The position numbers and the translations under genes were made by a program. From assembly GCF_032341995.1 (NCBI RefSeq), contig NZ_CP135439.1:2046001-2110000 (forward strand): 64,000 bases of DNA. The letters are read 5' to 3'. The notes under the pieces were generated by a model. It was not told the origin of the DNA, did not search any database, and worked only from the letters and a program-made list of their open reading frames with translations. Positions 3,085 to 42,816 of this stretch are shown piece by piece. Source of the stretch: Domibacillus sp. DTU_2020_1001157_1_SI_ALB_TIR_016. GTDB taxonomy: Bacteria; Bacillota; Bacilli; Bacillales; Domibacillaceae. Every line of letters begins with the position of its first letter. Position 1 is the stretch's first letter.

Positions 3085-3120
3085 AAAAGCCGTACCAGCA
3101 GAATGACTGATACGGCTTTT
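3085..3120. terminator. Dispersed-family hairpin terminator, copy 1
   Basis: Stem AAAGCCGTACCAG / CTGATACGGCTTT with a short loop and flanking A and T runs, so it can act on both strands. One of five near-identical hairpins in the window (others at 4255, 5246, 10479, 15956). It lies upstream of the symporter on the minus strand and before the plus-strand gene at 3499. Confidence 0.7.
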
Positions 3121-5282: not shown

Positions 5283-5432
5283 CCACATAACTTAACAGTC
5301 GATAAAGTGAAATTGCAAAGAATTATTACTTATCTTTATAGTCAGCAATAGGCCTATACTGTTGAGCAGGGAAATAACGAGAGAAAGGAAGAGCATATAA
5401 AAATAAAGAGTATGAAAACAACTATAAATATG

Positions 5433-5535: not shown

Positions 5536-8130
5536 TCAAAGTCTTGGATCTATAACAGGGTCCGATTCAAGAGCTAGCACCGCCAGTGTACATTCGTGTA
5601 TTCGTTCAATAGATTCTTTGTTAACGAATCGCTCAATCCCTTCTATCCCAAGTGCAAATTCTTTCAGCGCCATCTTTTGCTTCTTGCCAGTATTTCTTTT
5701 TTTCAGTCTCTCCAGGTTCTGGGGCTCTAAATAATCCATTCCATAAATGATATGCAGATACTTCTGGCCTCTCACTTTGATTGCTGGCTGTATCAGCTTT
5801 CCTTTTCCATGGGCAACGAAGAATTCCGGCTTGATTACAATGCCCTCGTGCCCATCCTTCGTCATTTCCTCCCACCACTTGATTACCTCTTTTTCATCGT
5901 CCTCATTTGTGATCACTTTATAGTCTGTTTCAATGAAATAGTCAGACATGCCGGCAAGCAAACGATTCATCTCCATATGCCATGTATGTGGCTGATCAAA
6001 AAAGGCCTTTCCGCTATGAGCCAAAATGTGAAAAGGGGCAATTTGAATATCGTCCATTGTTTGGACATCCCAACAATATTTCTGAAAAACTTGTTTAAAC
6101 GTATGAGCATTCTCAAGCCTTTGTTCGTACTCTCTCAGCCATTCCTGTACCTGCTCCTGATTTCCATGTGAGGTGCCGAGTTTTTCAACTAATGCTGTCC
6201 GATCCAGCACAGCATTTTCTGCCACATGAGCATACTGGCTGCTAATCAATTCTTTCGCTTTTAAATTCCATGGCATGATTTCCGCATCCATTAGAACAAA
6301 GTCGGTTTCATACTTTTTGAAATAGCCGCCTTTGGTTAAATCAGCGCATAGCTTTGCCAGTAGCTCCGTTTCCTGCTCACGGCTAAAAAAGTGCCGGCCG
6401 CTCCTTGTGTAAATCACACCAAGCGAATCTATTCCTATGTGTTTTTTAGAGGATTCGCAGTCCTTAAACAGAAGCAAGACAGCCCGGCTGCCCATATGCT
6501 TTTTCTCCGCAATCATCGTAGGAATCCCATGGTCCCGATAATACCGAAACGCTTCTGCCGGATGCTCTAGAAAACCAGCTTCAGAAGAGGTCTCAGGTGT
6601 CGGGCTCATCGTCGGCGGGATATAGACAAGCTGCTCGATCGGGACTGTTATATGAGATACTGCATCGATAGCCGGCTTTACGATACTCTCCGCCACTTGA
6701 ACTTCTCCCAGCTCTTTTGTCAGTACGCTGTAGCCGTTCAGAAACGCGCCGATATTTGGGAGATTTAATCGGGTTTTTTCCCACTCTGTCAGCGGATTAT
6801 CCAATACCCCTGAGTAGTCTTCCTTTGCCTGAACAGAAACATATTCTTTCTCTGGATAACGAAATGCTGTCAACTCTCCGCCGAACACAACGCCTTGATC
6901 AATGTTAATTGTATTATTTATCACGAGTGAGCGCGGCTTCGGATCGTGGCCCCAAACAATAAGAGTTTGATGCTTATGACCAGTAAACCAATCTTTTCGT
7001 ACAGGCTTTCCTTTTTCATCAAATCCATCCGTATCACCGTACCGGCAAAAGTCCTGCACAGCAGGTGATTGCCTGCCTATAAATTCATCTTTAATCCCCG
7101 CATGTGTACAAACAAGAACCGGAGACCCGTTTCTCGTTAAGACATAATGGGATGGTGCTTTTAAGAGAAACTCTTTTAAGTCATTTTTTATTTCTTCCGT
7201 CTGCTCTTTTCCGTTCTGCACTTCGAAAAGATCCAGTTCTTCTTTCACTCGCTCATCCCCATGGGACAGTGTAACCTTGCGCTTGTCGAGCCAGCGGGCA
7301 ATCTTCCATCCATGGTTACTGTCGATCATATAAGCAAAGCCTTCCTTTACATGTCGGCAGAAAAACAGCATGGTCTCTAGTGACATTGGCCCGCGGCTCA
7401 TAATATCGCCGAGCGATAAAAAGCGCCTTCCTTCGGGATGAACATAAAAATGCTGTTCATTTTTTTCATATCCCAGCTTTTCAAGCAGCGCAATCATTTC
7501 CTCAAAGCAGCCATGAATATCACCAATCACATCAATGCCCTGACCGATATCAATTTCCAAAGGATTCGGATGGCGATGTACATGTATTTCTTCTGTTGTA
7601 TTAATGGTATACACTGCCTTGTAGCCTTCTTTTTTGACAAAGCGTTTTTCCCGTTTAAACGTTTGGTATTGCTGCCGGACCCGGCGCTTTCCTCGTGGAT
7701 GCTTTCGCGCTTCATCCCGATTTAACAAAACAAATTCTTCTGTATCCAACAGGATCGCTGTGATCGGCAGATGATGTTTCCTGGCAATTCCTGCGTACCG
7801 CTTCCGGTCGTCTGGATGAAGGTTTGTTGCATCAATGATTGACAACTTATTTAAGCGGCACCTTGTTTCAATAAGCGCCTCCATCATCGCAAACGCTTCC
7901 TGCGACACTCTCTGGTACAACTCTTTAGCATAAAGTGCTTCGTCTTTTGACAGATCACGCCACTCCATAAATTCCTCGTCGTTCACCAGCAGCCGAAAGG
8001 CATCCGAACTGATTACTTCTGACTGCTTGATTTCCCCCTGGTCAATCTTTGTTTGGAGAAGCGTTGATTTCCCGCTGTTTGACGGACCAATAAGCAGAAC
8101 TATGCCTGCATGCGGCAAAGAAATGTTCAT
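5536..8130 (-). CDS. pnkp: Polynucleotide kinase-phosphatase-ligase Pnkp (RNA repair)
   Basis: An 864-residue trifunctional RNA end-healing and sealing enzyme of the bacterial Pnkp family (the Clostridium thermocellum enzyme has a similar length). Domains: (1) kinase, residues about 1-170, with P-loop GPSNSGKS at 15-22; (2) metallophosphatase, about 195-480, with GDIHG at 203-207, a GD at 241-242, the NH of the third motif and GHDPKPR; (3) ligase/adenylyltransferase, about 520-864, with EKKHMGSR, whose Lys544 is the expected nucleotidyl-transfer lysine. In this family the enzyme repairs RNAs cut by ribotoxins, healing 2',3'-cyclic phosphate and 5'-OH ends. The start overlaps the end of hen1 by four bases (ATGA), implying translational coupling. 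Oddity: the second phosphatase motif reads GDIMSRGP, with Ser where GDxxDRGP is usual. Confidence 0.93.
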   Translation of the reverse strand: MNISLPHAGIVLLIGPSNSGKSTLLQTKIDQGEIKQSEVISSDAFRLLVNDEEFMEWRDLSKDEALYAKELYQRVSQEAFAMMEALIETRCRLNKLSIIDATNLHPDDRKRYAGIARKHHLPITAILLDTEEFVLLNRDEARKHPRGKRRVRQQYQTFKREKRFVKKEGYKAVYTINTTEEIHVHRHPNPLEIDIGQGIDVIGDIHGCFEEMIALLEKLGYEKNEQHFYVHPEGRRFLSLGDIMSRGPMSLETMLFFCRHVKEGFAYMIDSNHGWKIARWLDKRKVTLSHGDERVKEELDLFEVQNGKEQTEEIKNDLKEFLLKAPSHYVLTRNGSPVLVCTHAGIKDEFIGRQSPAVQDFCRYGDTDGFDEKGKPVRKDWFTGHKHQTLIVWGHDPKPRSLVINNTINIDQGVVFGGELTAFRYPEKEYVSVQAKEDYSGVLDNPLTEWEKTRLNLPNIGAFLNGYSVLTKELGEVQVAESIVKPAIDAVSHITVPIEQLVYIPPTMSPTPETSSEAGFLEHPAEAFRYYRDHGIPTMIAEKKHMGSRAVLLLFKDCESSKKHIGIDSLGVIYTRSGRHFFSREQETELLAKLCADLTKGGYFKKYETDFVLMDAEIMPWNLKAKELISSQYAHVAENAVLDRTALVEKLGTSHGNQEQVQEWLREYEQRLENAHTFKQVFQKYCWDVQTMDDIQIAPFHILAHSGKAFFDQPHTWHMEMNRLLAGMSDYFIETDYKVITNEDDEKEVIKWWEEMTKDGHEGIVIKPEFFVAHGKGKLIQPAIKVRGQKYLHIIYGMDYLEPQNLERLKKRNTGKKQKMALKEFALGIEGIERFVNKESIERIHECTLAVLALESDPVIDPRL

Positions 8131-10468: not shown

Positions 10469-10478
10469 CTACAAACTG

Positions 10479-10514
10479 AAAGCCGTATCAGTAAATAACT
10501 GATACGGCTTTTTT
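10479..10514. terminator. Dispersed-family hairpin terminator, copy 4
   Basis: AAAGCCGTATCAGT / ACTGATACGGCTTT is a perfect 14-bp stem with a short loop. It lies between converging genes (CarD-like on plus, DUF3006 on minus) and can serve both. Confidence 0.75.
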
Positions 10515-10771
10515 CATTTCTTTTCTTCAGTTTGCTTGAGCAACTGTTCTTTCATTGCTCTAGCTTTTTCCTTAATACTTTCTGTTTCCCCTTCTAAAAC
10601 CTCAACTTGGAGCCCTTCTGGCAGAGACACGATTTTGATCAAGTCCCCTTCTCTCACATGAGCCCCCAGCTTTTCAGCCTCTATCAGCTCTTCAATCGAT
10701 TCATCCTCACGCCATAACAGCTTCGCCTGGCCTTTTTCAATGGAATCAATCGTATAAATACCGTTTCTCAT
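10514..10771 (-). CDS. DUF3006 family protein, 85 aa
   Basis: From ATG 10771 the protein opens MRNGIYTIDSIEKGQAKLL, continues with EKLGAHVREGDLIKI, and ends in a Lys/Glu-rich helix. This matches DUF3006, short proteins commonly encoded next to secreted ComEC-like metallo-beta-lactamases, as here. The start codon shares one base with the stop of the upstream hydrolase gene (TGATGA), so the pair is translationally coupled. Role unknown; a beta-barrel-like small partner is inferred from the family. A decayed copy lies at 15992-16222. Confidence 0.75.
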   Translation of the reverse strand: MRNGIYTIDSIEKGQAKLLWREDESIEELIEAEKLGAHVREGDLIKIVSLPEGLQVEVLEGETESIKEKARAMKEQLLKQTEEKK

Positions 10772-12480
10772 CAGTCCATCACGCTCACGATTTCCCAATT
10801 TAAATCAAATAACTGTGCTGGATCTCCGATATTGGCCCACATGTTAGAAGTTGTCCATTTCAGATACGTTGGCAGCTGTTCTTTTGCGTCAGGCCCTGAA
10901 GTCACATAAACGGTCTTCCCTGCTCCGAGGGTATAGCCATCTGGAAATGTGTACGTTTGGTTTCCTTGAACACTGACAAGCTTCCATCCCGACATGCCTA
11001 CGCTGCTAGAGCCGTTATTCTTGATGCCTACTGTTTCTCCACTCAAATCTTTGCTGACAATTTGGACTGTGCTGCTGCCTTCCACTGGATCTTCTACAGT
11101 TGGCGGTACATCAATCCCTTGTGTGAAATGAATCTCCTGGCCTTCTGTCCACGTTTCGATGCTGCCTTCTGGTGTTTTCCACACATTAACACCATAATCA
11201 AGCAGGCGGTTTAGCACTTCAGAATGAGGATGCCCATAGGTGTTTCCTTCTCCATAAGACAAAATCGCATCATTTGGATCGACGGCAGCTAAAAAGGCCG
11301 CTGAAGTTCCTGTTGAAGATCCATGGTGTGAAACTTTCAATACTTCTGCCTCCAGATCATATTTAGCCATCATTTCATTTTCTACTTCAATATCGGCGTC
11401 ACCTGTTAATAAGTAGTCAGCATCACCATAACTCACCTTAAGAACGATTGATCCTTCATTAAGATCTGCTGCCTGGCTGTCTGCGTGCAGTACCTTCACT
11501 GAAACAGATGGATCCGGCGAAATATCCTGGCCTTCTTCTGCTACCTTAAAGTCGGCACCTGACACCTGGATGGCTGCCAGATAATCAAGATACGTATTCG
11601 TCGTATGATCCTGACCGGAATCAATAACGGTTTTTACACCAAAATCTTTAATCACAGCATCAGCCCCACCAATATGGTCAGCATCTGGATGAGTGGCCAC
11701 AAAAGTGTCAACTGCAAAGCCAGGACCAAATCCGCTGACTGCTTCCTTGATATCTGCGTCCGACCGGCCAGCATCCACCATCATCGTCTGCCCATTTGGA
11801 AATCCAAGAAAAATGGCATCCCCCTGGCCAACATTTAAGAAATCTACATATAATGCAGGTCCTTCCGGCAATGGCTCAGAAGTGTCTGCGGCATCTATAG
11901 CACGTGACATAAACGCCGCAAATTCGCCGCGTTTCACTGCTGTATCAGGACGGTATGTATTATCCGGGTAGCCTTGTGTAATACCGGCTGCAATAATCTT
12001 ACCGATATAAGAATAAGCTGCTGAATTCTTTGATACATCTTTAAATACTACTGGTGCTGTTTCTGTCAATTCATAAGCACGTGTTAGCAAAATCGCCAGC
12101 TGTCCCCGGGTAACCGGCTCATTAGGACGAAATGTTCCGTCTGGAAAACCGCTAATAATGCCCCCTTCTACCGCTTGCGCAATATAACCGGACGCGACAC
12201 TGGATGGGCTTACATCATCAAAGACTGTCGATCGCTTCGTACCATCCACATCAAATGCACGGCCAATCATAATCGCCGCCTGAGCACGGGTTACCTGCGT
12301 ATCAGGCATAAAACGGCCATCTGGAAAACCAGAAATAATCCCTGTATTGGATAAATAATCAATGTCCTCATAGAATCTGTAACTTTCAGAAACATCCTTA
12401 AATGTTGCTGCCTGAGCAAGCGGAGCCGCAATGCCAAGCGAAAAAACAATGCTTGATAATAAAGCTAATGGCTTTTTCAA
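10771..12480 (-). CDS. SLH-anchored secreted ComEC-like metallo-beta-lactamase with lamin-tail domain
   Basis: About 569 residues. Order: signal peptide (LKKPLALLSS...APLAQA), three SLH repeats (about 27-75, 87-135, 146-194) for binding pyruvylated wall polymer, a ComEC/Rec2-type metallo-beta-lactamase domain (about 207-445) with HPDADHIGG and SHHGS, and a C-terminal lamin-tail-like beta domain (about 460-569). The hydrolase domain resembles the nuclease part of ComEC, so extracellular nucleic acid or phosphodiester cleavage is a reasonable inference. The start is TTG 12480: the in-frame ATG six codons upstream lies within the GGGAGG ribosome binding site itself. Coupled to DUF3006 downstream. 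Confidence 0.85.
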   Translation of the reverse strand: MKKPLALLSSIVFSLGIAAPLAQAATFKDVSESYRFYEDIDYLSNTGIISGFPDGRFMPDTQVTRAQAAIMIGRAFDVDGTKRSTVFDDVSPSSVASGYIAQAVEGGIISGFPDGTFRPNEPVTRGQLAILLTRAYELTETAPVVFKDVSKNSAAYSYIGKIIAAGITQGYPDNTYRPDTAVKRGEFAAFMSRAIDAADTSEPLPEGPALYVDFLNVGQGDAIFLGFPNGQTMMVDAGRSDADIKEAVSGFGPGFAVDTFVATHPDADHIGGADAVIKDFGVKTVIDSGQDHTTNTYLDYLAAIQVSGADFKVAEEGQDISPDPSVSVKVLHADSQAADLNEGSIVLKVSYGDADYLLTGDADIEVENEMMAKYDLEAEVLKVSHHGSSTGTSAAFLAAVDPNDAILSYGEGNTYGHPHSEVLNRLLDYGVNVWKTPEGSIETWTEGQEIHFTQGIDVPPTVEDPVEGSSTVQIVSKDLSGETVGIKNNGSSSVGMSGWKLVSVQGNQTYTFPDGYTLGAGKTVYVTSGPDAKEQLPTYLKWTTSNMWANIGDPAQLFDLNWEIVSVMD

Positions 12481-28138: not shown

Positions 28139-28561
28139 CTAATTAGTCAGCATTTGAACAATACTGCAAAGCAAAGGACCCCCGTTTTTTTAGCTGAGGT
28201 CTTTTTAATACAAAAAAATAGTATCTCTACTGCATTAACTACCTTTTAATTTTTGATTTTAAACGGCGCTGCAAGTTTGAAATCTTTGTATTGGGTTACA
28301 CGTGTTGATTATGAATAATCTTCCATAAATAAACGACAAAAAAGAGATGCCCTCTTGTAACTGACATTCCGCATGTCAAAATAAGCTATTTCATATTTTT
28401 TGCTTTTTCCTGTTTTTCGCGCCGCCAACAGGCTGTGGAATTACTTTGGCGGCACAGGTTTTAAATGTTTAAGGCAATTTAATGAAATTATATTAATTGG
28501 TTTACTTGGATTTTACACGCTGGAAAGGCTGAAGGCTGGACAACACTTTTTAATTTACAGA

Positions 28562-35372: not shown

Positions 35373-35870
35373 CTAAATATGGAGACTAATGAACGAAGAC
35401 AAGGTCCGGGATGTCCTTATTGCCAGCTCAGGAACTTTTGCCTGAAGTGACAACCATTTCGTTTCCGAAGTGGATTTTTGAAAAGCCCGGATAAAATAGC
35501 GAGCTCCAATATTATAAGAAGCAGACAAATCCGTATGATAGACTTTGCCAGTTGAAAACGTGGCAAGGTCTTTTTTCGGGTTCCGTTCCACTTTTCCAGA
35601 GCCGTCAAACGCCAGGGTGCTGGTGTTTCACAGATTGATCCGGGAAATGCGCATGCCCAGGAAGTGTGCCATTTCTTCCACTTTGTTCTGGATACTTATT
35701 TTCCGCCACACATGAAGCTTGAAACGAAGTTTCAGTGAAAGCGCTTTGCCCCAATGTCCCGAGAGACCTCTTCGCGCCTCTTTTTAATGTCTTTATTTCT
35801 CATCAAGTAATAGTTCTCTCCTAATTTTCCAGTATACAAGCAATCTAAAGCAAAAAAATATTCTATCGGA
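35373..35870 (-). pseudogene. TnpB (IS200/IS605 OrfB) C-terminal remnant
   Basis: The order GKLGENYYLMRNKDIKKRRE, LRFKLHVWRKISIQNKVEEM, NTSTLAFDGSGKVERNP and YHTDLSASYNIGARYF matches the C-terminal half of TnpB-type proteins, the last piece being the third RuvC-like motif. TGA replaces the expected Trp of the WNTS motif, and frames shift in the middle. The N-terminal half is missing and is replaced by an IS3-type end (35886-35979). Inactive. Confidence 0.75.
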
Positions 35871-36070: not shown

Positions 36071-36487
36071 TCAATCGTATATTACATTTTTTCCTTCTTC
36101 ACTTAACTTTTTTAAAGATGTAAGCATATGATTTATTTCTTCATCGGAATGCCTTTCCCATGAACTTAATTCAGCTATTATTTTCAAAGGAGATTTAGAT
36201 CTATAAGAACGTGTTGGGTTTCCAGGAAATTTTTTGTCAGTTAAGTTCGGATCATTTTCAAAATCACCTAATGGTTCTACAATATAAATTCTCTCTTTTG
36301 AATTAGATTTTGCTAATTCAGCACCCCATTTAGCAGCGTTTAATGTTCCAGTAAAATAGATATGGTTAGATTTTTTATCCTGATAATTGGATAAGTACAA
36401 AGGTTCAAGCAGGTCTCCAATTTTCAGTTCTGCTTTAGTACCATGAAAAAACGGGCCAGGATCTAAGACATTTTTTTTGTCATTCAT
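36071..36487 (-). CDS. arr: Rifampin ADP-ribosyltransferase Arr
   Basis: 138 residues, the normal length for Arr. Key motifs: FFHGTKAELKIGDLL at the start (His of the NAD site), NHIYFTGTLNAAKWGAELA (Tyr and following helix), RIYIVEPLGDFENDPNL, and KKFPGNPTRSYRSKSPL. Arr transfers ADP-ribose from NAD+ to rifamycins, inactivating them; some homologues may modify other substrates. AAGGGGTG precedes the ATG. It stands between IS remnants (35373-35979) and immunity-like genes, consistent with acquisition by transfer. Confidence 0.9.
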   Translation of the reverse strand: MNDKKNVLDPGPFFHGTKAELKIGDLLEPLYLSNYQDKKSNHIYFTGTLNAAKWGAELAKSNSKERIYIVEPLGDFENDPNLTDKKFPGNPTRSYRSKSPLKIIAELSSWERHSDEEINHMLTSLKKLSEEGKNVIYD

Positions 36488-36609: not shown

Positions 36610-36762
36610 TCAGAAACAAAAAATCCATTCTCCAACTTCAGAACCATTGGCCAATTTAAACAATTGAACGTACTGGTCCGGGAAACGAATATTCAACTTT
36701 TGTTCTGTTTCTCTTATCGCAGATTCCTCTACGCCTTTTTTATTTGTATCTAATAATTTCAT
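36610..36762 (-). pseudogene. Truncated SUKH (SMI1/KNR4) immunity protein
   Basis: From ATG 36762, with GGAGG upstream, 50 residues match the start of SUKH-superfamily immunity proteins: VEESAIRETEQKLNIRFPDQ then YVQLFKLANGSEVGEW. A stop follows where more than 80 further residues are expected. SUKH proteins neutralise toxins of polymorphic and contact-dependent systems. No toxin gene is adjacent. Confidence 0.6.
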
Positions 36763-36814
36763 GCATGGTCTAACCTCCAAATTTTGATTTAATGGTCAAT
36801 CTGAATGTAACTTA

Positions 36815-36882
36815 ATTGCATTTATGTTGCATTAAGGAGCGAGTTTTACGGTTCACTTTTTCCACTAAAGCACCCCGTTAGC
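36815..36882. repeat. Dispersed repeat, copy 1
   Basis: TTGCATTAAGGAGCGAGTTT, GGTTCACTTTTTCCA and AAAGCACCCCGTTAGCTGAA in order. A second copy begins at 40960 and is split by IS110. Confidence 0.7.
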
Positions 36883-36892
36883 TGAATAAGAA

Positions 36893-37282
36893 TTACTCTA
36901 TAATCAGTGTTACATTTTCGTTATCAAGGATGATTTCTTCTATCCAGTCAAATATAGTTGGACCTTTGTTCATCTTTGCATCTCTTATTTCTTGAATCAC
37001 GCTTTCTTTATTAGTCGGATGGCAATTTTTCAATATTTCATTCAGTTTAATAATGGTTTCTCCGTATCCTAAATCTCTTTTTGATTTAGCAGAATTTTTC
37101 CAAATAATTGTGTATTCTTCTCCAAATTCTATATCTCCAAAACCACCACACAAAATATCATTAAATGCATCTAGACCTTCGTTCCATTCATATTTTCCAG
37201 AGAGAACTACATTCGAAAACTCCTTACAAAACCCCTTAAAATTAGAAAAATTCTCTCCATCAATGATGAAAACTTTGTTCAT
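36893..37282 (-). CDS. Barstar-family ribonuclease inhibitor (orphan immunity protein)
   Basis: 129 residues from ATG 37282 (AGAGGTG upstream; the frame is open for 67 more codons, but that part lies over repeats). It opens NKVFIIDGENFSNFKGFCKE, contains EWNEGLDAFNDILCGGFGDI, the segment that in barstar plugs the barnase active site, and ends NENVTLIIE like the barstar C-terminus. An insertion between the core strands makes it longer than classical barstar. No cognate RNase is present, so it is an orphan immunity gene or a regulator. Confidence 0.8.
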   Translation of the reverse strand: MNKVFIIDGENFSNFKGFCKEFSNVVLSGKYEWNEGLDAFNDILCGGFGDIEFGEEYTIIWKNSAKSKRDLGYGETIIKLNEILKNCHPTNKESVIQEIRDAKMNKGPTIFDWIEEIILDNENVTLIIE

Positions 37283-37410
37283 ACTGGCACCTCTAACTAC
37301 ACTGTTTTTCTTTAGTTTATCATAGTCCCTTATTCCACTAACCTGCCACGTTGGTTTAGGAAGACACATTACAAAAATAATTGCATTTATGTCGCATTTT
37401 ATTTCACTGC

Positions 37411-37434
37411 TCAACAGTAGACCGAAACTGTTGA
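37411..37434. repeat. Palindromic spacer repeat, copy 1
   Basis: TCAACAGT and ACTGTTGA, a perfect inverted repeat around eight bases (AGACCGAA). Lies upstream of the barstar gene. Confidence 0.65.
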
Positions 37435-37701
37435 CTAATAATATGTATTCCCATTTTTCTTTTTCATTTTGTAAAAATGCCAAAGATAAGCCGACATCCT
37501 CTCAAGCATCACGAATGACAATGCCAAAACAAAGAAATACTCTTTCAATGCTCCTCACGTCCTTTTTTAGACTTTCTTTTTATATGTTTCAGTTATTTTT
37601 TTATATATTAATTAAATTTTCAATATATTGTCTTCCCTTTACAATGCTGTTATGATGTATTCTGTTCTTTGTTTATATATTAAAAAAAGGAGGAAAGTTT
37701 T

Positions 37702-38391
37702 TTGAGCAACACCGAGATTAAAAAAAGAGCACGGCAAGTGCTTAAAGGATATTGGGGCAAAGCAATTTCGCTTACTTTTATATTAGGTTTATTGGTTATC
37801 CTTCTGCCAGCTGTGGTAGTAGCTGTGGTAGAAATTTATTTATCGGGCGGGTTTGAAGCCTGGTTTAATACTGACAGCACCCCTCTTGCTTCTGATGTAT
37901 TTAGCACCATCCTTTCTATTTTGACCACTCCTTTGACTATTGCTTCTCTATGGTTTTATTTATCCATTTCTCGCAAAGAGACACCCTCTCTATCAAATGT
38001 ATTTGGGATTTACAGAGATGGCCGTACTTCTTTCAAAACCATTATTGCCTGCTATTGGATGTTTTTGTTGACTATTCTTTGGTCGCTGTTGCTTATCGTA
38101 CCTGGGATCATTAAAAGCTTTTCGTACTCGCAGACTTATTTTATTTTAAAGGATCATCCTTCTTATACGGTAAATGAAGCCATCACAGAAAGCCGTAAAA
38201 TGATGGACGGATTAAAGAATCAGTATTTTACGCTTTGCCTGAGCTTTATTGGCTGGGGAATCCTCTCCCTTCTTACACTCGGGATCGGATTTTTATGGCT
38301 GGTACCGTATATTCAGACATGCCTTGCCGTATTCTATTCAGAAGCTGCTGCAAAACAGAACAATTCAACAACAGAGACGATTACACCTTAA
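37702..38391 (+). CDS. DUF975 family integral membrane protein
   Basis: 229 residues from TTG 37702 behind AAAGGAGG. A cytoplasmic KKRARQVLKGYWGKAI start is followed by about five membrane segments. LLIVPGIIKSFSYSQTYFIL and EAITESRKMMDG are characteristic of DUF975 proteins, which are widespread in Firmicutes and of unknown function. A symmetric terminator (38394-38423) ends the unit. It interrupts the row of immunity-like genes. Confidence 0.8.
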   Translation: MSNTEIKKRARQVLKGYWGKAISLTFILGLLVILLPAVVVAVVEIYLSGGFEAWFNTDSTPLASDVFSTILSILTTPLTIASLWFYLSISRKETPSLSNVFGIYRDGRTSFKTIIACYWMFLLTILWSLLLIVPGIIKSFSYSQTYFILKDHPSYTVNEAITESRKMMDGLKNQYFTLCLSFIGWGILSLLTLGIGFLWLVPYIQTCLAVFYSEAAAKQNNSTTETITP

Positions 38392-38393
38392 CC

Positions 38394-38423
38394 AAAAAAG
38401 AACTTCAGCCGAAGTTCTTTTTT
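38394..38423. terminator. Terminator of the DUF975 gene
   Basis: AAAAAAGAACTTC-agcc-GAAGTTCTTTTTT, a perfect 13-bp stem. Confidence 0.8.
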
Positions 38424-38481
38424 GGTTTCTATTAATTTAAACACTGAAGGAGAAAAACCTCGTGACACGCAAGAAAGTTAC

Positions 38482-38505
38482 CCAACAGTTGACCGATACT
38501 ATTGA
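38482..38505. repeat. Palindromic spacer repeat, copy 2
   Basis: CAACAGT and ACTATTG arms around eight bases (TGACCGAT); lies directly before the DUF4304 gene. Confidence 0.6.
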
Positions 38506-38558
38506 TTGAGGAAGTTAAATTGTCTGATACTGTACTATACAGAAGAGGAGGAATTAAT

Positions 38559-38999
38559 TTGTCTTTAGAAAGAGATGCAATGATAAAGTCACTGAAAGAA
38601 ATTGTTATTCCAGTCTTGAGAGAATTGAGATTTAAAGGATCATTTCCTCATTTCTATAGAAAATTAGAAGAACGTGCTGATTTACTAATGTTTCAATTTA
38701 GTATGTGGGGCGAGGCCTTGTATGTTGAAATTTCTAAATGTCCATCCGAAGGTCATGTAGATAGATCAGGTAAACACATTCCTCTGAATAAGGTAAAAGT
38801 TTACGATGTAGATGTATTTGATGGCGATGGTTTACCTTATAGAATTCGTATTGGGAAAGAAGAAAAAGGGATGTTTGAATTTAACAAAGACAATACAGAC
38901 AAGATTTCCTGGCTAATAAGAAATGCTTTGAGTGAAGCTGAAGAATGGTGGAACTCTTCTCCTAATTGGTGGAGCAGTAAAAATATCGAAAGAAATTAA
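38559..38999 (+). CDS. DUF4304 family protein (immunity-like), 146 aa
   Basis: TTG 38559 is seven bases after AGGAGG; an ATG 19 codons upstream lacks a site. It opens LERDAMIKSLKEIVIPVLRE, then FKGSFPHFYRKLEERADLLM FQ-like sequence, FSMWGEALYVEI, and a Trp-rich C-terminus. DUF4304 proteins are small soluble proteins often found among toxin-immunity genes, function unproven. Bounded on both sides by repeats (38482 and 39001). Confidence 0.65.
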   Translation: MSLERDAMIKSLKEIVIPVLRELRFKGSFPHFYRKLEERADLLMFQFSMWGEALYVEISKCPSEGHVDRSGKHIPLNKVKVYDVDVFDGDGLPYRIRIGKEEKGMFEFNKDNTDKISWLIRNALSEAEEWWNSSPNWWSSKNIERN

Positions 39000-39000
39000 T

Positions 39001-39023
39001 CAACAGTACGTCCATGCTGGTTA
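39001..39023. repeat. Palindromic spacer repeat, degenerate copy 3
   Basis: CAACAGTACGTCCATGCTGG begins two bases after the DUF4304 stop codon. It shares CAACAGT and CGTCCA with the other copies, but the right arm is poorly conserved. Confidence 0.45.
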
Positions 39024-39188
39024 GTTTTGATAGAAACAATGTATTAATAGTAGGCGTTTTGGATGATAAAATTTTATTGTTAGGAAAGCAATGACCATTT
39101 TTGATGGTGGTACAATGATTTAAATGATTTCTTGTTAACCTAACGCAGCCGAAAGTGTACTGTTATTACCTTTTAAGGAGTGAAGATA

Positions 39189-40112
39189 TTGCTGAGTATG
39201 GAGGTGGTGAAATCATTTAACACAAGTTATTCTTTTGCCGTGTCGGATGATTTCAACTTTATATCCCGTGTATCAAATAAAACGTTTATTTACTTAAATA
39301 AAAACTGGGAAGATCCTATTGTTTTAAATAAGCCTAGTCATCCTGGTACTTTAGAATACAACGATGGTTCTAAGTTATTACTAATTCAAAACACTACTGG
39401 AAGTACCTATATTTATGAAACTGAACAGTTTAATCTTGTAAAAACCATTCGAAGTAAAAAAAATTTAAAATTAAAAGAAGGTCAGATTTCTTTCTTGAAG
39501 GAGAAAACCGGATTATTATTTGTGGCAAGTACTAGTTCAAGTGATCAAATCTTTGTATTTGATCTAGATTTAGATCAATATGAGGCAATTTCAGATTTTG
39601 AGGATTCTAGCATTTCGTATATTCAATACCTGGAAGAGGAAAATGCTCATTTGTTTACAATCCGTACCAATAATGAAATGGCTGGGGTCACTGAATTTTC
39701 TATTGTGAAAATTGTGGAGAAAGATTTTTCTTTTATTAAGATTGACAATAGTAAGGGGTTTGTCTGGAAGGGAGTACTTTTTAATGCTGCATTGAATAGT
39801 TACATTCTAGTTGATGGGTATAACGTTGTAATGTTAGACTCGAAATTTGAGAATGTACTACAAGATGTTAAACTCTCTCTTCCAGAAGTTCATGGATTTG
39901 CCCAACAATTTCGACATATAATTTTATCGAACGATGGAAAATTTATATTAATTACTTTTAGCGAGTGTGTAGTCATCTTAGACAGCAAGAGTCTAAACGC
40001 TATTGATATTCAGGACCTGCCTAATGCATGCTATGCTAGTTTCAGTAAAGACGACAAGTATCTCCTAATAGGTACTTGGAATAAAGGTTATATTCTTTTG
40101 AATAATTTATAG
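39189..40112 (+). CDS. Beta-propeller-like hypothetical protein, 307 aa
   Basis: Start TTG 39189 is eight bases after AAGGAG; ATG 39198 is an alternative. The whole protein is built of short beta strands in repeated four-strand blocks (KTFIYLNKNW, SKLLLIQNTTGSTYIYE, QIFVFDLDLDQ, GKFILITFSECVVILDS, KYLLIGTWNKGYILLNN), like a six- or seven-bladed propeller, without a signal peptide. Such intracellular propellers occur among immunity genes of polymorphic toxins, and its position between DUF4304 and SUKH genes fits that, but this is inference only. Confidence 0.55.
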   Translation: MLSMEVVKSFNTSYSFAVSDDFNFISRVSNKTFIYLNKNWEDPIVLNKPSHPGTLEYNDGSKLLLIQNTTGSTYIYETEQFNLVKTIRSKKNLKLKEGQISFLKEKTGLLFVASTSSSDQIFVFDLDLDQYEAISDFEDSSISYIQYLEEENAHLFTIRTNNEMAGVTEFSIVKIVEKDFSFIKIDNSKGFVWKGVLFNAALNSYILVDGYNVVMLDSKFENVLQDVKLSLPEVHGFAQQFRHIILSNDGKFILITFSECVVILDSKSLNAIDIQDLPNACYASFSKDDKYLLIGTWNKGYILLNNL

Positions 40113-40153
40113 GGAAAAGCAAAAAAACTATTTTTAAATCATGAATACATACA

Positions 40154-40192
40154 AAACAGCCATTCTTATTTTATCGGTAGGAAAGGCTGTTT
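40154..40192. terminator. Terminator of the propeller gene
   Basis: AAACAGCC / GGCTGTTT arms with inner pairing, 42 bases past the stop codon. Confidence 0.55.
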
Positions 40193-40233
40193 CTTGTATT
40201 TATTAAACGAATGTAACAATGGGTTCTGCTTCA

Positions 40234-40257
40234 TCAATAGTTGACTGAAACTGTTGA
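40234..40257. repeat. Palindromic spacer repeat, copy 4
   Basis: TCAATAGT and ACTGTTGA arms around eight bases (TGACTGAA), ten bases from the end of the SUKH gene. Confidence 0.65.
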
Positions 40258-40266
40258 TTACGAAGC

Positions 40267-40820
40267 CTATGAAAGCCTATAGTAATTTTCAGCAGTATGT
40301 ATAAACCACCACCAAAATTTTTCACCTTGGCTCATAACAAATCGGTCCAGCCATAGCTCAAAGTTCATCTGTAACGGCTCAGCTTCTGTAAATTGTTCTG
40401 TGTGGTCTTTCCATAGAAGATAATTTTTTTGGTTTTCTGAATAAAGTTTAGAATTAATCACAATGTTATCCTGGTAAATATATGCTATGTCATAACAACC
40501 GTCCAGTTCGTCGTAATGCTCATTTAATTCGAGAATTTGTTCCAAGCTATAAAGCTCAATCTCACCACCATGCTCAATATCATTAAATAACCGGCAGCCA
40601 TTTGTTATTCTTAGAAACGCTTTGTAATCTGGCGGCAATATTAAGCCCGTTTTGTTTTCAAAATCATTTATTTCCTCGTCGCTTGCCGGGTGATTAAATG
40701 TGCATGTCGCTTTATATACATGCCCTGTTCGCTTTGGACATCAATAACGTTATCGTTTTGTTCAAGGCGCGTTTTTAAGGCATTCAAAGTTTTTTGGACT
40801 ATACTTCCTTCTGTTAACAT
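40267..40820 (-). pseudogene. SUKH (SMI1/KNR4) immunity protein, frameshifted
   Basis: ATG 40820 (GGGGG upstream) opens LTEGSIVQKTLNALKTRLEQ and continues to QSEQGMY. A one-base shift near 40697 then moves the family sequence to another frame: YKATCTFNHPASDEEINDFE, followed by LPPDYKAFLRITNGCRLFND and ending near FWWWFIHTAENYYR. Both halves match one SUKH immunity protein of about 180 residues. Broken by a single frameshift unless this is a sequence error. Bounded by repeats at 40234 and 40893. Confidence 0.75.
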
Positions 40821-40892
40821 TTGATATCCCCCATTCTCTAATCTTCTTCCTTTTCTTAACAATAGCATGTATTTACTTCGGAGAGTACGTTA

Positions 40893-40917
40893 ATCAATAG
40901 TTCGTCCAGACTGTATA
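40893..40917. repeat. Palindromic spacer repeat, copy 5
   Basis: TCAATAGT, eight bases (TCGTCCAG), then ACTGTATA; lies upstream of the SUKH gene and just before the terminator at 40921. Confidence 0.5.
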
Positions 40918-40920
40918 TTA

Positions 40921-40955
40921 AAAGCCCCGGCTGTTTTTGACAGCCGGGGCTTTTC
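40921..40955. terminator. Very strong bidirectional hairpin
   Basis: AAAAGCCCCGGCTGT / ACAGCCGGGGCTTTT, a perfect 15-bp stem with a 5-base loop. Confidence 0.8.
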
Positions 40956-40959
40956 TAAC

Positions 40960-41033
40960 ACAACATAATTACATTTTTGTTGCATTAAGGAGCGAGTTTT
41001 ATAGTTCACTTTTTCAATTAAAGCCCCCGTTCG
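40960..41033. repeat. Dispersed repeat, copy 2 (left part)
   Basis: TTGCATTAAGGAGCGAGTTT, GTTCACTTTTTCAAT and AAAGCCCCCGTT match copy 1 at 36815. The match ends at CCCGTT, where the IS110 element begins, and appears to resume at about 42690 (CCCGTTAATTGAACAAG). Confidence 0.7.
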
Positions 41034-41076
41034 TATTATAAGGTCAGCCAGAAAAGAAAATATTTCTGGTTGACCA

Positions 41077-41284
41077 TTTTTTATATGGTTTTATGATAAC
41101 GGTAGCCGGGGTAGAACGTAAGCCCCCGTGGGACTTGAGATCCCGTCAAGTAAACAGTTCGCCCCCTACTTGCTTAAACATGTTTTGGCTGGTTGGGACC
41201 AAGATCTCGTATAACAAGCGAAGCTATGACACTGCAAGAAGGATTAGGGGTTACCGGCAATATTCGTATTGGAGGAGATAAAGA
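41077..41284 (+). ncRNA. Candidate bridge RNA region of the IS110 element
   Basis: About 200 noncoding bases between a GGTCAGCCAGAAA/TTTCTGGTTGACC hairpin (41042-41076) and the transposase start. In IS110 elements this left-end region encodes the bridge RNA that pairs with target and donor DNA. Local stems such as GGGACTTGAGATCCC are visible. The guide loops were not resolved by eye. Confidence 0.5.
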
Positions 41285-42520
41285 ATGGATCCAGTGGTTG
41301 GTCTGGATGTAGCCAAAGGTGAAAGTCAAGTTCAAGCGTTCTTGGAAAAAAAGAAGCCTTACAAAGGCAGTTTTAAAGTGGCACATACCCTTGAAGGACT
41401 AGAGAGCTTACACCAATACCTAAGAGAAATCGAAGACTTAACAGGAATTCGACCTCCGGTCGTTTTAGAGTCTACTGGGCATTATCATACACCCGTTGTT
41501 CAGTATTTCGAGGAAAAAGGTTATTTATTAATTATCATTAACCCACTCATCTCTTATCGAGCAAAGAACTCTTCTTTACGCAAAGTAAAGACGGATGTAC
41601 TTGATGCTTATCATCTTTGTGAGCTGTATTATAAAGAGGATTTGGAGCATCATAAAAAACGAGGAATCCAACTCTTAAATCTTCGTAATCTTACAAGACA
41701 ACACGCAAATATAACAGGCATTTATGTACAAACAAAACTTCAATTTCAAGCAGTGCTCGACCAGGTATTCCCTGAGTATCGAGGCGTTTTTGGGGATTTA
41801 TATTCAGGTGTTTCTTTACTAACTCTATTGGAATATCCTACATCGGAAGATGTTTTGGCAACTGATGAAGCAGTGTTAACCAATAAAATCGATGAATTAT
41901 GTAAAAGCCGTTCTAAGAATTGGGCAAATACTCAGGCAAAGAAGCTGATAGAAGCAGCAACTAGAAATCCCTTTCAGAAAAACCTGTATCAAAGCCATAT
42001 CCTCAGCATCGAAATGTACATCAAAATGCTTATAGAGTACCAAAAGCATCTATCTAAGCTTGAAGATGAGATAGATGCTTTGGCAAAAGAAATGGAAGAA
42101 TATAAGATTATCCAATCAATCCCTGGTATCGGAGAAAAAATCGCGGCAACGATTATTTCTGAAATTGGTGAGATTGATCGGTTTAATCACCCTAAAAAGC
42201 TTGTAGCATTCGCTGGAATCGATCCCAGTATCTATGAGTCTGGTCGATTTAAAGGCACTGTAAACCGGATTACGAAAAGAGGTTCAAGTAGATTACGTCA
42301 TGCCTTGTATATGGCCGTTCGATGTGCCATCCGTGATTGTCGTAAAAAGAAAACAACGAATGAAATCATCCCGAGAAATAAGAAACTGCGTGAGTTCTAT
42401 GATAAAAAACGGGAAGAAGGAAAGCCTTATAAAGTAGCTGTAATCGCATGTGCCAATAAGCTCTTACAGTGGATATATGCCCTTTTAAAAAGCTATTCCA
42501 CATTCCAAGATATAGCTTAA
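41285..42520 (+). CDS. IS110 family transposase (DEDD recombinase)
   Basis: 411 residues, full length, ATG behind GGAGGAG. The N-terminal RuvC-like DEDD domain shows GLDVAKG (first Asp), VLESTGHYH (Glu) and KVKTDVLDAYHL (Asp pair). The C-terminal transposase_20 domain has IIQSIPGIGEKIAATIISEI and FAGIDPSIYESG, with the serine-containing KRGSSRLRHALY. The frame is intact, so the element may be active. It lies right of the repeat-bounded immunity genes. Confidence 0.93.
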   Translation: MDPVVGLDVAKGESQVQAFLEKKKPYKGSFKVAHTLEGLESLHQYLREIEDLTGIRPPVVLESTGHYHTPVVQYFEEKGYLLIIINPLISYRAKNSSLRKVKTDVLDAYHLCELYYKEDLEHHKKRGIQLLNLRNLTRQHANITGIYVQTKLQFQAVLDQVFPEYRGVFGDLYSGVSLLTLLEYPTSEDVLATDEAVLTNKIDELCKSRSKNWANTQAKKLIEAATRNPFQKNLYQSHILSIEMYIKMLIEYQKHLSKLEDEIDALAKEMEEYKIIQSIPGIGEKIAATIISEIGEIDRFNHPKKLVAFAGIDPSIYESGRFKGTVNRITKRGSSRLRHALYMAVRCAIRDCRKKKTTNEIIPRNKKLREFYDKKREEGKPYKVAVIACANKLLQWIYALLKSYSTFQDIA

Positions 42521-42816
42521 ATAAGAAATAAAACAAAACCATACAAAACCTTCCAATTGTTTGAATTAGGAAGGTTATTTGGCATGGCTATTTTTAGTAT
42601 AGCATGAACAATTTCAAGTTTTTATTGAAAAATGTTGACAAACTATTAGCTGGTTTCGTATAAGATGAATACTTCTTTATTGATTTAACCTGCCCGTTAA
42701 TTGAACAAGAAAATTAACAAGATCTTTAACAGTGCCTTTCTTTTAAAATTTTCCAAGTTTAGTATTAAGATTTGGCAGGCAGAGACTGCCCTTATTTAGC
42801 GGCCTGTTCTACTTCT

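Follow-up and report, generated by a model that had tools for sequence, protein, structure and literature searches.

The 64,000-nucleotide stretch of Domibacillus sp. DTU_2020_1001157_1_SI_ALB_TIR_016 analysed here (the window; positions 2,046,001 to 2,110,000 of contig NZ_CP135439.1) carries, between its positions 36,610 and 40,917, a row of small genes separated by short inverted repeats, which the original prediction had taken for a stockpile of orphan immunity genes. We found that the repeats are of two kinds, termed R and L, and that sequences flanking them have been exchanged between loci, strains, and genomes of Domibacillus. The best overall explanation, which we consider likely, is that the repeats are sites of a tyrosine recombinase and that modules bounded by R and L sites are exchanged at them; site-specific exchange of modules as such is very probable. 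The system is a variant within the class of gene modules shuffled by recombinases rather than a stockpile of immunity genes only, and matches none of the cassette systems with which it was compared. Genomes, contigs, and loci are denoted below by G, C, and L numbers; G000 is the genome of the window.

The repeats are real and occur far above chance. The pattern TCAACAGT-N8-ACTGTTGA, with up to three mismatches, matched the 64-kb window seven times against 0.26 expected and a maximum of two in 100 shuffles, and five of the seven matches (37411, 38482, 39000, 40234, and 40894) lay where repeats had been predicted. The predicted spacer of eight bases did not stand, as the site has a 13-6-13 layout, i.e., two 13-base arms around a 6-base spacer. 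A symmetric, spacer-blind model of the arms alone, trained on the arms of R sites, gave 105 matches at a spacer length of 6 and 0, 5, 1, 0, 0, and 0 matches at lengths of 4, 5, 7, 8, 9, and 10, respectively; on the reversed sequence, it gave none at length 6 and one at length 9. Classified by spacer (two mismatches or fewer), these 105 sites comprised 85 R-like (GACCGA), 19 L-like (CGTCCA), and one other, and the single repeat of the original prediction was resolved into R sites at 37411, 38482, and 40234 and L sites at 39000 and 40894. The stronger arm was the right one in R sites and the left one in L sites, where the inner part of the left arm had been selected for and the outer TTA had not. 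In the 1.01 Mb of loci read, 142 R sites scored 14 or more (two places being counted on both strands), and the loosest threshold gave 154 against none in the reversed sequence, with matrices trained on the same loci as were scored. L sites were called by a fixed pattern, an iterated L matrix having drifted to all sites.

Sequence comparison shows flank exchange at both kinds of site. The 125 R sites with a score of at least 18 and 80 bases on both sides, out of the 142, were compared in 7750 pairs at a flank-sharing threshold of 28 (shuffled null maximum, 17): 57 pairs shared the left flank only, 88 the right flank only, nine both, and 7592 neither, four being ambiguous, so that one-sided sharing stood at 145 against nine two-sided cases. 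Of the 21 multi-member left clusters, 16 were linked to at least two right clusters, and the converse held for 17 of 21; one of the 21 right clusters has 18 members and is possibly part of a longer repeat. For L sites, 4656 pairs yielded 20 left-only, 80 right-only, 13 two-sided, and three ambiguous cases, of which the left-only cases are the telling ones because the right side includes shared linkers. With one value taken per cluster, position 9 of the R site tracked the left flank (0.80 vs 0.47, 16 clusters, P 0.0005) but showed no such link to the right one (P 0.80), whereas positions 14 and 16 tracked the right flank (17 clusters; P 0.029 and 0.0045, respectively) without following the left one (P 0.52 and 0.68). 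Because position 9 goes with the left flank and positions 14 and 16 with the right, this comparison locates the crossover of R sites between positions 9 and 14, in the spacer. A crossover apparently confined to the spacer between inverted arms resembles, by comparison only, that of tyrosine recombinase sites.

These data bear on two explanations that involve no exchange of modules. A dispersed mobile repeat, such as a miniature inverted-repeat transposable element (MITE) or the end of an insertion sequence (IS), inserted between genes by chance, would fit the dispersal of the sites, the frequency of single copies, and the one right flank that recurs 18 times; however, insertion would not combine one left flank with a series of right flanks, or one right flank with a series of left flanks, and would not yield a crossover within 6 bases, and the flanks shared by the units of the window span whole genes, which leaves this origin highly improbable. 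Operator sites for a shared regulator would likewise be palindromic and near gene ends, but genes stand in both orientations on both sides of the sites and the flanks recombine at the site, and we regard this role as extremely improbable.

Whole units that begin or end at sites distinguish G000 from G006, two strains of the same species. At L192/L131, common flanks of 96-98% identity enclose an extra unit of 475 bases in G006 and an unlike 91-base stretch in G000; at L008/L132, a common flank of 95-96% identity ends, 526 versus 324 bases differ, and identity returns at the site. Units of the window also recur elsewhere with other neighbours. The propeller-like unit (38996-40258) has a 98% identical counterpart at G010:C42:47846-49109, and the SUKH unit (40236-40987) a 97% identical one at G010:C42:31303-32055, where the SUKH frame is open (200 aa); the two units adjoin in the window and lie 16 kb apart in G010. 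At single sites, 37411 has its left flank in common with G010:C42:51191 and an unlike right flank, and 39000 has its right flank in common with G010:C42:49082 and an unlike left flank. The left flank of 40234 is that of G010:C42:47847, and its right flank that of G010:C42:32034 and G000:C2:1630397, while 40894 shares its right flank with G010:C42:47450 and 71148. The barstar stretch 36873-37358 is 95% identical to G007:C7:8043-8527; since this match stops at 37358, short of the site, the barstar border is no proof of exchange. Cassette-wise gain and loss of genes at the repeats, as originally proposed, was thus borne out by the whole-unit strain differences at two loci and by modules of the window found elsewhere beside other genes.

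The order of the sites is also non-random. Among 89 pairs of neighbouring sites up to 2.6 kb apart (L sites with two mismatches left out), 81 had the same orientation (44.5 expected; largest value 63 in 2000 shuffles), L was never followed by L (7.0 expected, P 0.001), and R was followed by L 34 times (17 expected; reached in none of 2000 shuffles). Linkers of 69 bases, measured from the start of L to the end of R, recur and were found behind different genes. In the mechanism that we propose, the repeats would be recombination sites of a tyrosine site-specific recombinase, with the better conserved arm facing the gene module. Modules of one or a few genes lie between sites in consistent orientation, mostly as R-gene-L or R-gene-R; in some places there are also short L-R linkers, many of them 69 bases long. 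Crossover in the spacer between sites of the same kind (R-R, L-L) would excise, insert, and swap modules, the differing spacers keeping R from recombining with L. Excised circles would serve as carriers, prophages may help to spread modules, and genes of immunity type would be one cargo class, kept when protective.

Several observations weigh against this mechanism. L was followed by R 19 times against 16.9 expected (P 0.29), which is not above expectation, 28 of the 89 neighbour pairs were R-R, and just 19 of the 97 L sites are followed by an R site in the next 250 bases, from which it follows that the R/L alternation is incomplete or decayed. The fixed pattern for L sites made 97 calls compared with 26 in the reversed control, and the L-site calls thus include false ones. 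Sites in L013 and L212 lie among phage-like genes. Finally, for the circles, the reaction, and expression, the proposal draws on sequence comparison.

As to the enzyme, the best candidate, not a proven one, is a XerC/D-like tyrosine recombinase of 375 aa (Int-A), the gene of which is divergent from that of a helix-turn-helix (HTH) partner of family HTH_17. Of nine Int-A copies or fragments with at least 78% identity, five are no more than 2 kb away from a site (G009:C57, G006:C110, and G006:C44, with fragments in G000:C2 and G012:C26); among the other four, G009:C62 is 19 kb and G010:C32 approximately 5 kb from a site, and G005:C28 and G000:C1:479210 have none on the stretches read. Three platforms (L064, L012, and L200) show the order Int-A (a fragment in L012), a 250-aa open reading frame (ORF) or its remnant, site, modules, and HTH_17 gene. 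In L124 and L162, the HTH gene is next to Int-A and no site separates the two, although L124 has a site on the far side of Int-A. Residues R210, K238, H316, R319, H342, and Y351, which we take to be the catalytic columns, are invariant in 12 homologues, and Int-A is more similar to XerD, XerA, and XerH than to IntI4. Relatives (<60% identical) occur on 97 plasmids, 53 of them of Priestia, and in 4 of the 97 records, those whose loci were read, a divergent HTH partner was present each time, once with a hypothetical gene between.

We give Int-A an even chance of being the enzyme that acts on the sites, having moved down from slightly better than even because of a second recombinase type near sites. 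That site-specific exchange is carried out by a tyrosine recombinase other than Int-A, either the 289-aa plasmid-type enzyme of L057 or a phage integrase, is unlikely but deserves weight. In each of the three genomes in which the L057 type was seen, its distance from a site is between 1.5 and 4.7 kb (2.6 kb in G010:C42 and 4.7 kb in G006:C55, both intact, and 1.5 kb for the fragments in G005:C12), and G007 has 18 sites and no Int-A homologue above the XerC/D level. Against this alternative, Int-A is nearer to sites and more often at them, and modules lie between Int-A and its partner in the three platforms. The case for Int-A is further weakened by its having been chosen after many recombinases had been viewed, its proximity thus being post hoc, by the Int-A of G005 without a site on the stretch read, and by two other recombinase fragments in G000, of phage type by eye, within 500 bases of a site. 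Moreover, relatives of Int-A in other genera lack such sites at the loci read, which may mean that the sites are not its ancestral substrate. In G000, the recombinase nearest to any site of the window lies outside the window.

Two other candidates were rejected. A Xer-like relic (L122, L085) was considered as the integrase; in G000, it stands beside the chromosomal dif, 45 kb from the nearest site, and in G012 approximately 1.5 kb from a site. The decayed gene in G000 (C2:1830936-1831811, L085) adjoins the only dif-like site of the chromosome, an arrangement that integration at dif would leave behind. A phage-type integrase near L013 adjoins a glutamine-synthetase-like gene (by eye) and was set aside.

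We considered whether the arrays are sedentary chromosomal integrons or clusters of attC sites lacking integron-integrases (CALIN), in which an IntI integrase acts on folded single-strand attC sites. The attC layout consists of outer arms and two inner boxes, and the L-linker-R element is similar, its outer arms reading TCAAC...GTTGA with two boxes inside them; good folding was seen for two class-A linkers (z -5.9 and -5.4), the cargo is mixed as in integrons, and the 69-nt elements recur behind different genes. However, no gene in 13 Domibacillus genomes exceeded the cut-off of the IntI model (TIGR02249, 265 bits), which gave many weak matches, and Int-A reached 63 bits. With a G^TT cut at 20/21, position 16 should go along with the left flank, whereas it was observed with the right. 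Among ten elements folded, two had z below -5, two stood at -3.1 and -3.3, and six lay between -1.7 and +0.9; of the seven 69-nt elements among the folded, five had z of at least -1.7 and two were those at -3.1 and -3.3. The system shares cassette arrays, exchange between sites, and, in some loci, a recombinase gene beside the array with integrons and CALIN, and differs from them in the integrase and, by comparison, in a crossover within the spacer; on these two grounds it is not an integron, an identity that we hold to be very unlikely. The IntegronFinder 2.0 study describes complete integrons as almost unknown in Bacillota, reporting one in Firmicutes (Limnochorda pilosa) and a few CALIN (PMC9024848).

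Closer in geometry are the plasmid dif (pdif) modules of Acinetobacter, which have two-arm sites with 6-base spacers, exchange between like spacers, shuffled order, and cargo including toxin-antitoxin and resistance genes (PMC13141974). Shuffling of this type by the host XerC and XerD at dif-like sites would explain the two arms and the 6-base spacer (105 matches at spacer 6), exchange by like spacers, and modules between sites alternating in type as described for Acinetobacter (PMC13141974). Against it, the only dif-like site in the host genome (three mismatches or fewer), C2:1831784 ACTTTCTATAATAAATATTATGTTAACT, has arms unlike those of R and L sites. The Domibacillus system also differs from the Acinetobacter modules in its two spacer types and probably in its recombinase. 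Its sites lie on chromosomal contigs, in some phage-like stretches, and on a contig that carries a replication-initiator-like gene (L057, by eye). As to the alternation of neighbouring sites, L-L was absent and R-L occurred 34 times, L-R, at 19, did not exceed expectation, and R-R made up 28 of the 89 pairs. We judge host-driven dif shuffling to be highly improbable.

The recombinase-associated acquired interbacterial defence (rAID) clusters of Bacteroidales, as described in a preprint, combine a tyrosine recombinase with arrays of short orphan immunity genes, including SUKH, and conserved intergenic motifs (PMC12247911). Domibacillus likewise has a tyrosine recombinase and orphan SUKH genes; a recombinase stands beside the array in L064 and L200, and a fragment of one in L012, but the window array has no adjoining recombinase. 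It differs in belonging to Bacillota, in mixed cargo, in genes of both orientations, and in 13-6-13 sites with two spacers, and its arrays are not mainly of co-oriented short orphan immunity genes. Since the arms are unlike the host dif and the arrays do not consist mainly of immunity genes, the system belongs, by the tests made, to neither dif modules nor rAID. Recombinase and HTH pairs on plasmids of Bacillaceae and Planococcaceae resemble it in the homologous recombinase and the divergent HTH gene, but no such sites were found by the arm model at 15 relatives' loci. Including four loci scanned with the R matrix, relatives outside the Int-A subfamily had no site at 19 loci, the arm model giving borderline scores of 13.0 and 14.0. 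Repeat searches around a B-type Int and three loci of other genera found no such site, and palindromes sought de novo on four plasmids and at further loci formed no clear family, the Domibacillus control itself yielding only four copies. Beside an Int relative in G047, five CRISPR-like (clustered regularly interspaced short palindromic repeats) repeats with a 66-base period were observed (L182 5427-5732).

Among the papers listed by literature searches on integrons, gene cassettes, tyrosine recombinases, and polymorphic-toxin immunity, none was seen to report this system, and we claim no stronger absence than this. We tentatively suggest, at somewhat less than even odds, that it represents a third natural gene-cassette system beside integrons and dif modules, with a dedicated, plasmid-derived Int-A and its HTH partner, shuffling of single-gene modules between chromosome and prophages, and a two-spacer code; as part of the same suggestion, the R/L code would fix module orientation and allow separate exchange on the gene and linker sides. 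In Bacillota, a shuffling system other than the integron would let Gram-positive bacteria stock and reorder accessory genes, including orphan immunity genes. The two spacer types make the order- and direction-keeping of cassette systems directly testable, and the recurrence of 69-base linkers behind different genes bears on how genes acquire a recombination site.

Next, we focused on the cargo. Site-bounded ORFs numbered 106. Removal of redundancy left 90, and the 72 with a length of 75 aa or more were scanned with Pfam. The first 25 of 78 families included PhzF (3), Big_14 (3), SUKH (3), and GNAT (2), with single members of SDR, EamA, DUF975, CPCC, YxiG, DUF5063, RusA, YkuD, PadR, and others; the controls were 72 ORFs from 261 of 368 non-redundant ones (403 in total), and since their table covers the first 25 of 125 families, we claim no enrichment. 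Twenty proteins scanned singly comprised three HTH partners of recombinases and 17 cargo proteins, six of which had no family at E 0.01; the remainder included SUKH (2), GNAT, Glyoxalase, polyketide cyclase, CPCC, DUF3221, and DUF5063. In a scan with a defence library, 13 models matched with one member each, and these were candidate families and regulators. Genes within arrays are of mixed orientation. SUKH, DUF4304, CPCC, and barstar, which we assume to be immunity-type families, form a visible minority of the cargo; some modules probably protect against the toxins of rivals, and the majority have other functions. The idea that the repeat is dedicated to immunity genes was therefore not supported, as 3 of the 72 site-bounded ORFs matched SUKH and the rest included PhzF, GNAT, SDR, EamA, DUF975, RusA, YkuD, Glyoxalase, and more. 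The stockpile reading fared no better, the sites being spread over the host genome (29 R sites in the G000 loci read) and largely away from immunity genes.

Beyond the host, an exact scan for the 24-base pattern in a genome collection, which possibly does not include the genome of the window, gave no matches other than those in Domibacillus sp. PGB-M46 and D. aminovorans. With a sequence model built on the R half, 150 candidates being scored per genome, sites were detected in 12 of the 13 Domibacillus genomes at E 0.05 and in 11 of 13 at E 5e-4, and in none of 11 genomes of four sister genera at E 5e-4. An exact R site also lies beside a 116-aa DUF3221 ORF on a phage-like IMG/VR contig of 52.5 kb (L212 4969-4991), and the DUF3221 family is also present in a G000 module (L005); prophages may carry modules. 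Three related ORFs (MAYRGAV...) were noted at 7274-7606, 10475-10783, and 12574-12966 of L013, a phage-like stretch with several sites.

The window array (Table 1) is a partly decayed example of such arrays, in which one SUKH gene is frameshifted and another cut, a linker lacks its R site, and a copy of IS110 is present. Pfam and translation agree with the truncated SUKH, barstar, DUF4304, and frameshifted SUKH genes originally described, a DUF975 gene having been overlooked. The ORF described as a cytoplasmic beta-propeller exists, and its label is unproven. The predicted lack of a toxin gene holds for the nine window ORFs scanned with Pfam, among which no toxin family was found, the remainder of the window being outside this toxin scan. 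In the two-frame SUKH gene, the 3' part spans 40267-40638 and the 5' part, in another frame and without a match of its own, 40668-40868.

Table 1. Genes, sites, and other features of the window array and its borders
Feature	Position	Strand	Basis and remarks
arr, rifampin ADP-ribosyltransferase gene	36071..36487	(-)	PF12120 E 3.8e-46; site-bounding not established
SUKH gene fragment, N-terminus, 50 codons then stop	36610..36762	(-)	Translation; PF09346 (SUKH-1) E 3.6e-6, over cut-off
Linker relic TTGCATTTATGTTGCATT-AAGGAGCGAG...	36809..36875	(+)	Repeat family D2; 88% like 40962-41028
Barstar-family gene	36893..37282	(-)	PF01337 E 2.7e-5, just over cut-off
R-type site, spacer GACCGA	37407..37438 (core 37411-37434)	(+)	Pattern match and R matrix
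DUF975 membrane-protein gene, between two R sites, barstar and DUF4304	37702..38391	(+)	PF06161 E 3e-36
R-type site	38478..38509 (core 38482-38505)	(+)	Pattern match and R matrix
DUF4304 gene, module R(38482)-L(39000)	38580..38999	(+)	PF14137 E 5.2e-12 on ORF from 38502
L-type site, spacer CGTCCA	38996..39027 (core 39000-39023)	(+)	Fixed L pattern
Propeller-like ORF, 310 aa	39180..40112	(+)	Several weak Pfam propeller-family matches, best E 0.001, all far below cut-off
R-type site	40230..40261 (core 40234-40257)	(+)	Pattern match
SUKH gene in two frames	40267..40868	(-)	PF09346 E 3.1e-6 on 3' part
L-type site	40890..40921 (core 40894-40917)	(+)	Fixed L pattern
Linker: terminator-like hairpin 40920-40954 and repeat	40920..41028	(+)	Right-hand R site not recognised
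IS110-type element, transposase 41285-42520	41021..42670	(+)	PF01548/PF02371; adjoins linker

The IS110-type element has 98% identical copies in G006:C114 and G010:C42 and may target these linkers. It adjoins the same linker repeat in two genomes (window 41021-42670; G010:C42:69500-71044). The arr DNA is 87% identical at two places in G012 (C4:12281-12737 and C26:3060-3516); arr lies near recombinase remnants on two G012 contigs (L122 11539-12700; G012:C26:3060-3516) and likewise adjoins the window array. Two more degenerate R-like sites occur in the window off the array, at 5342-5365 (score 27.9) and 28147-28170 (score 20.5), and a different palindrome, approximately CCGTATCAGC-6-GCTGATACGG, has three window copies, at 3090, 4260, and 5252. 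A 355-base repeat at 35379-35733, guessed to be a TnpB remnant, received no support from Pfam in that role, its 72-aa ORF having no match over the cut-off; it is present at full length at 19 or more places in G006 (88-93% identity), with further copies in G005, G009, and G010.

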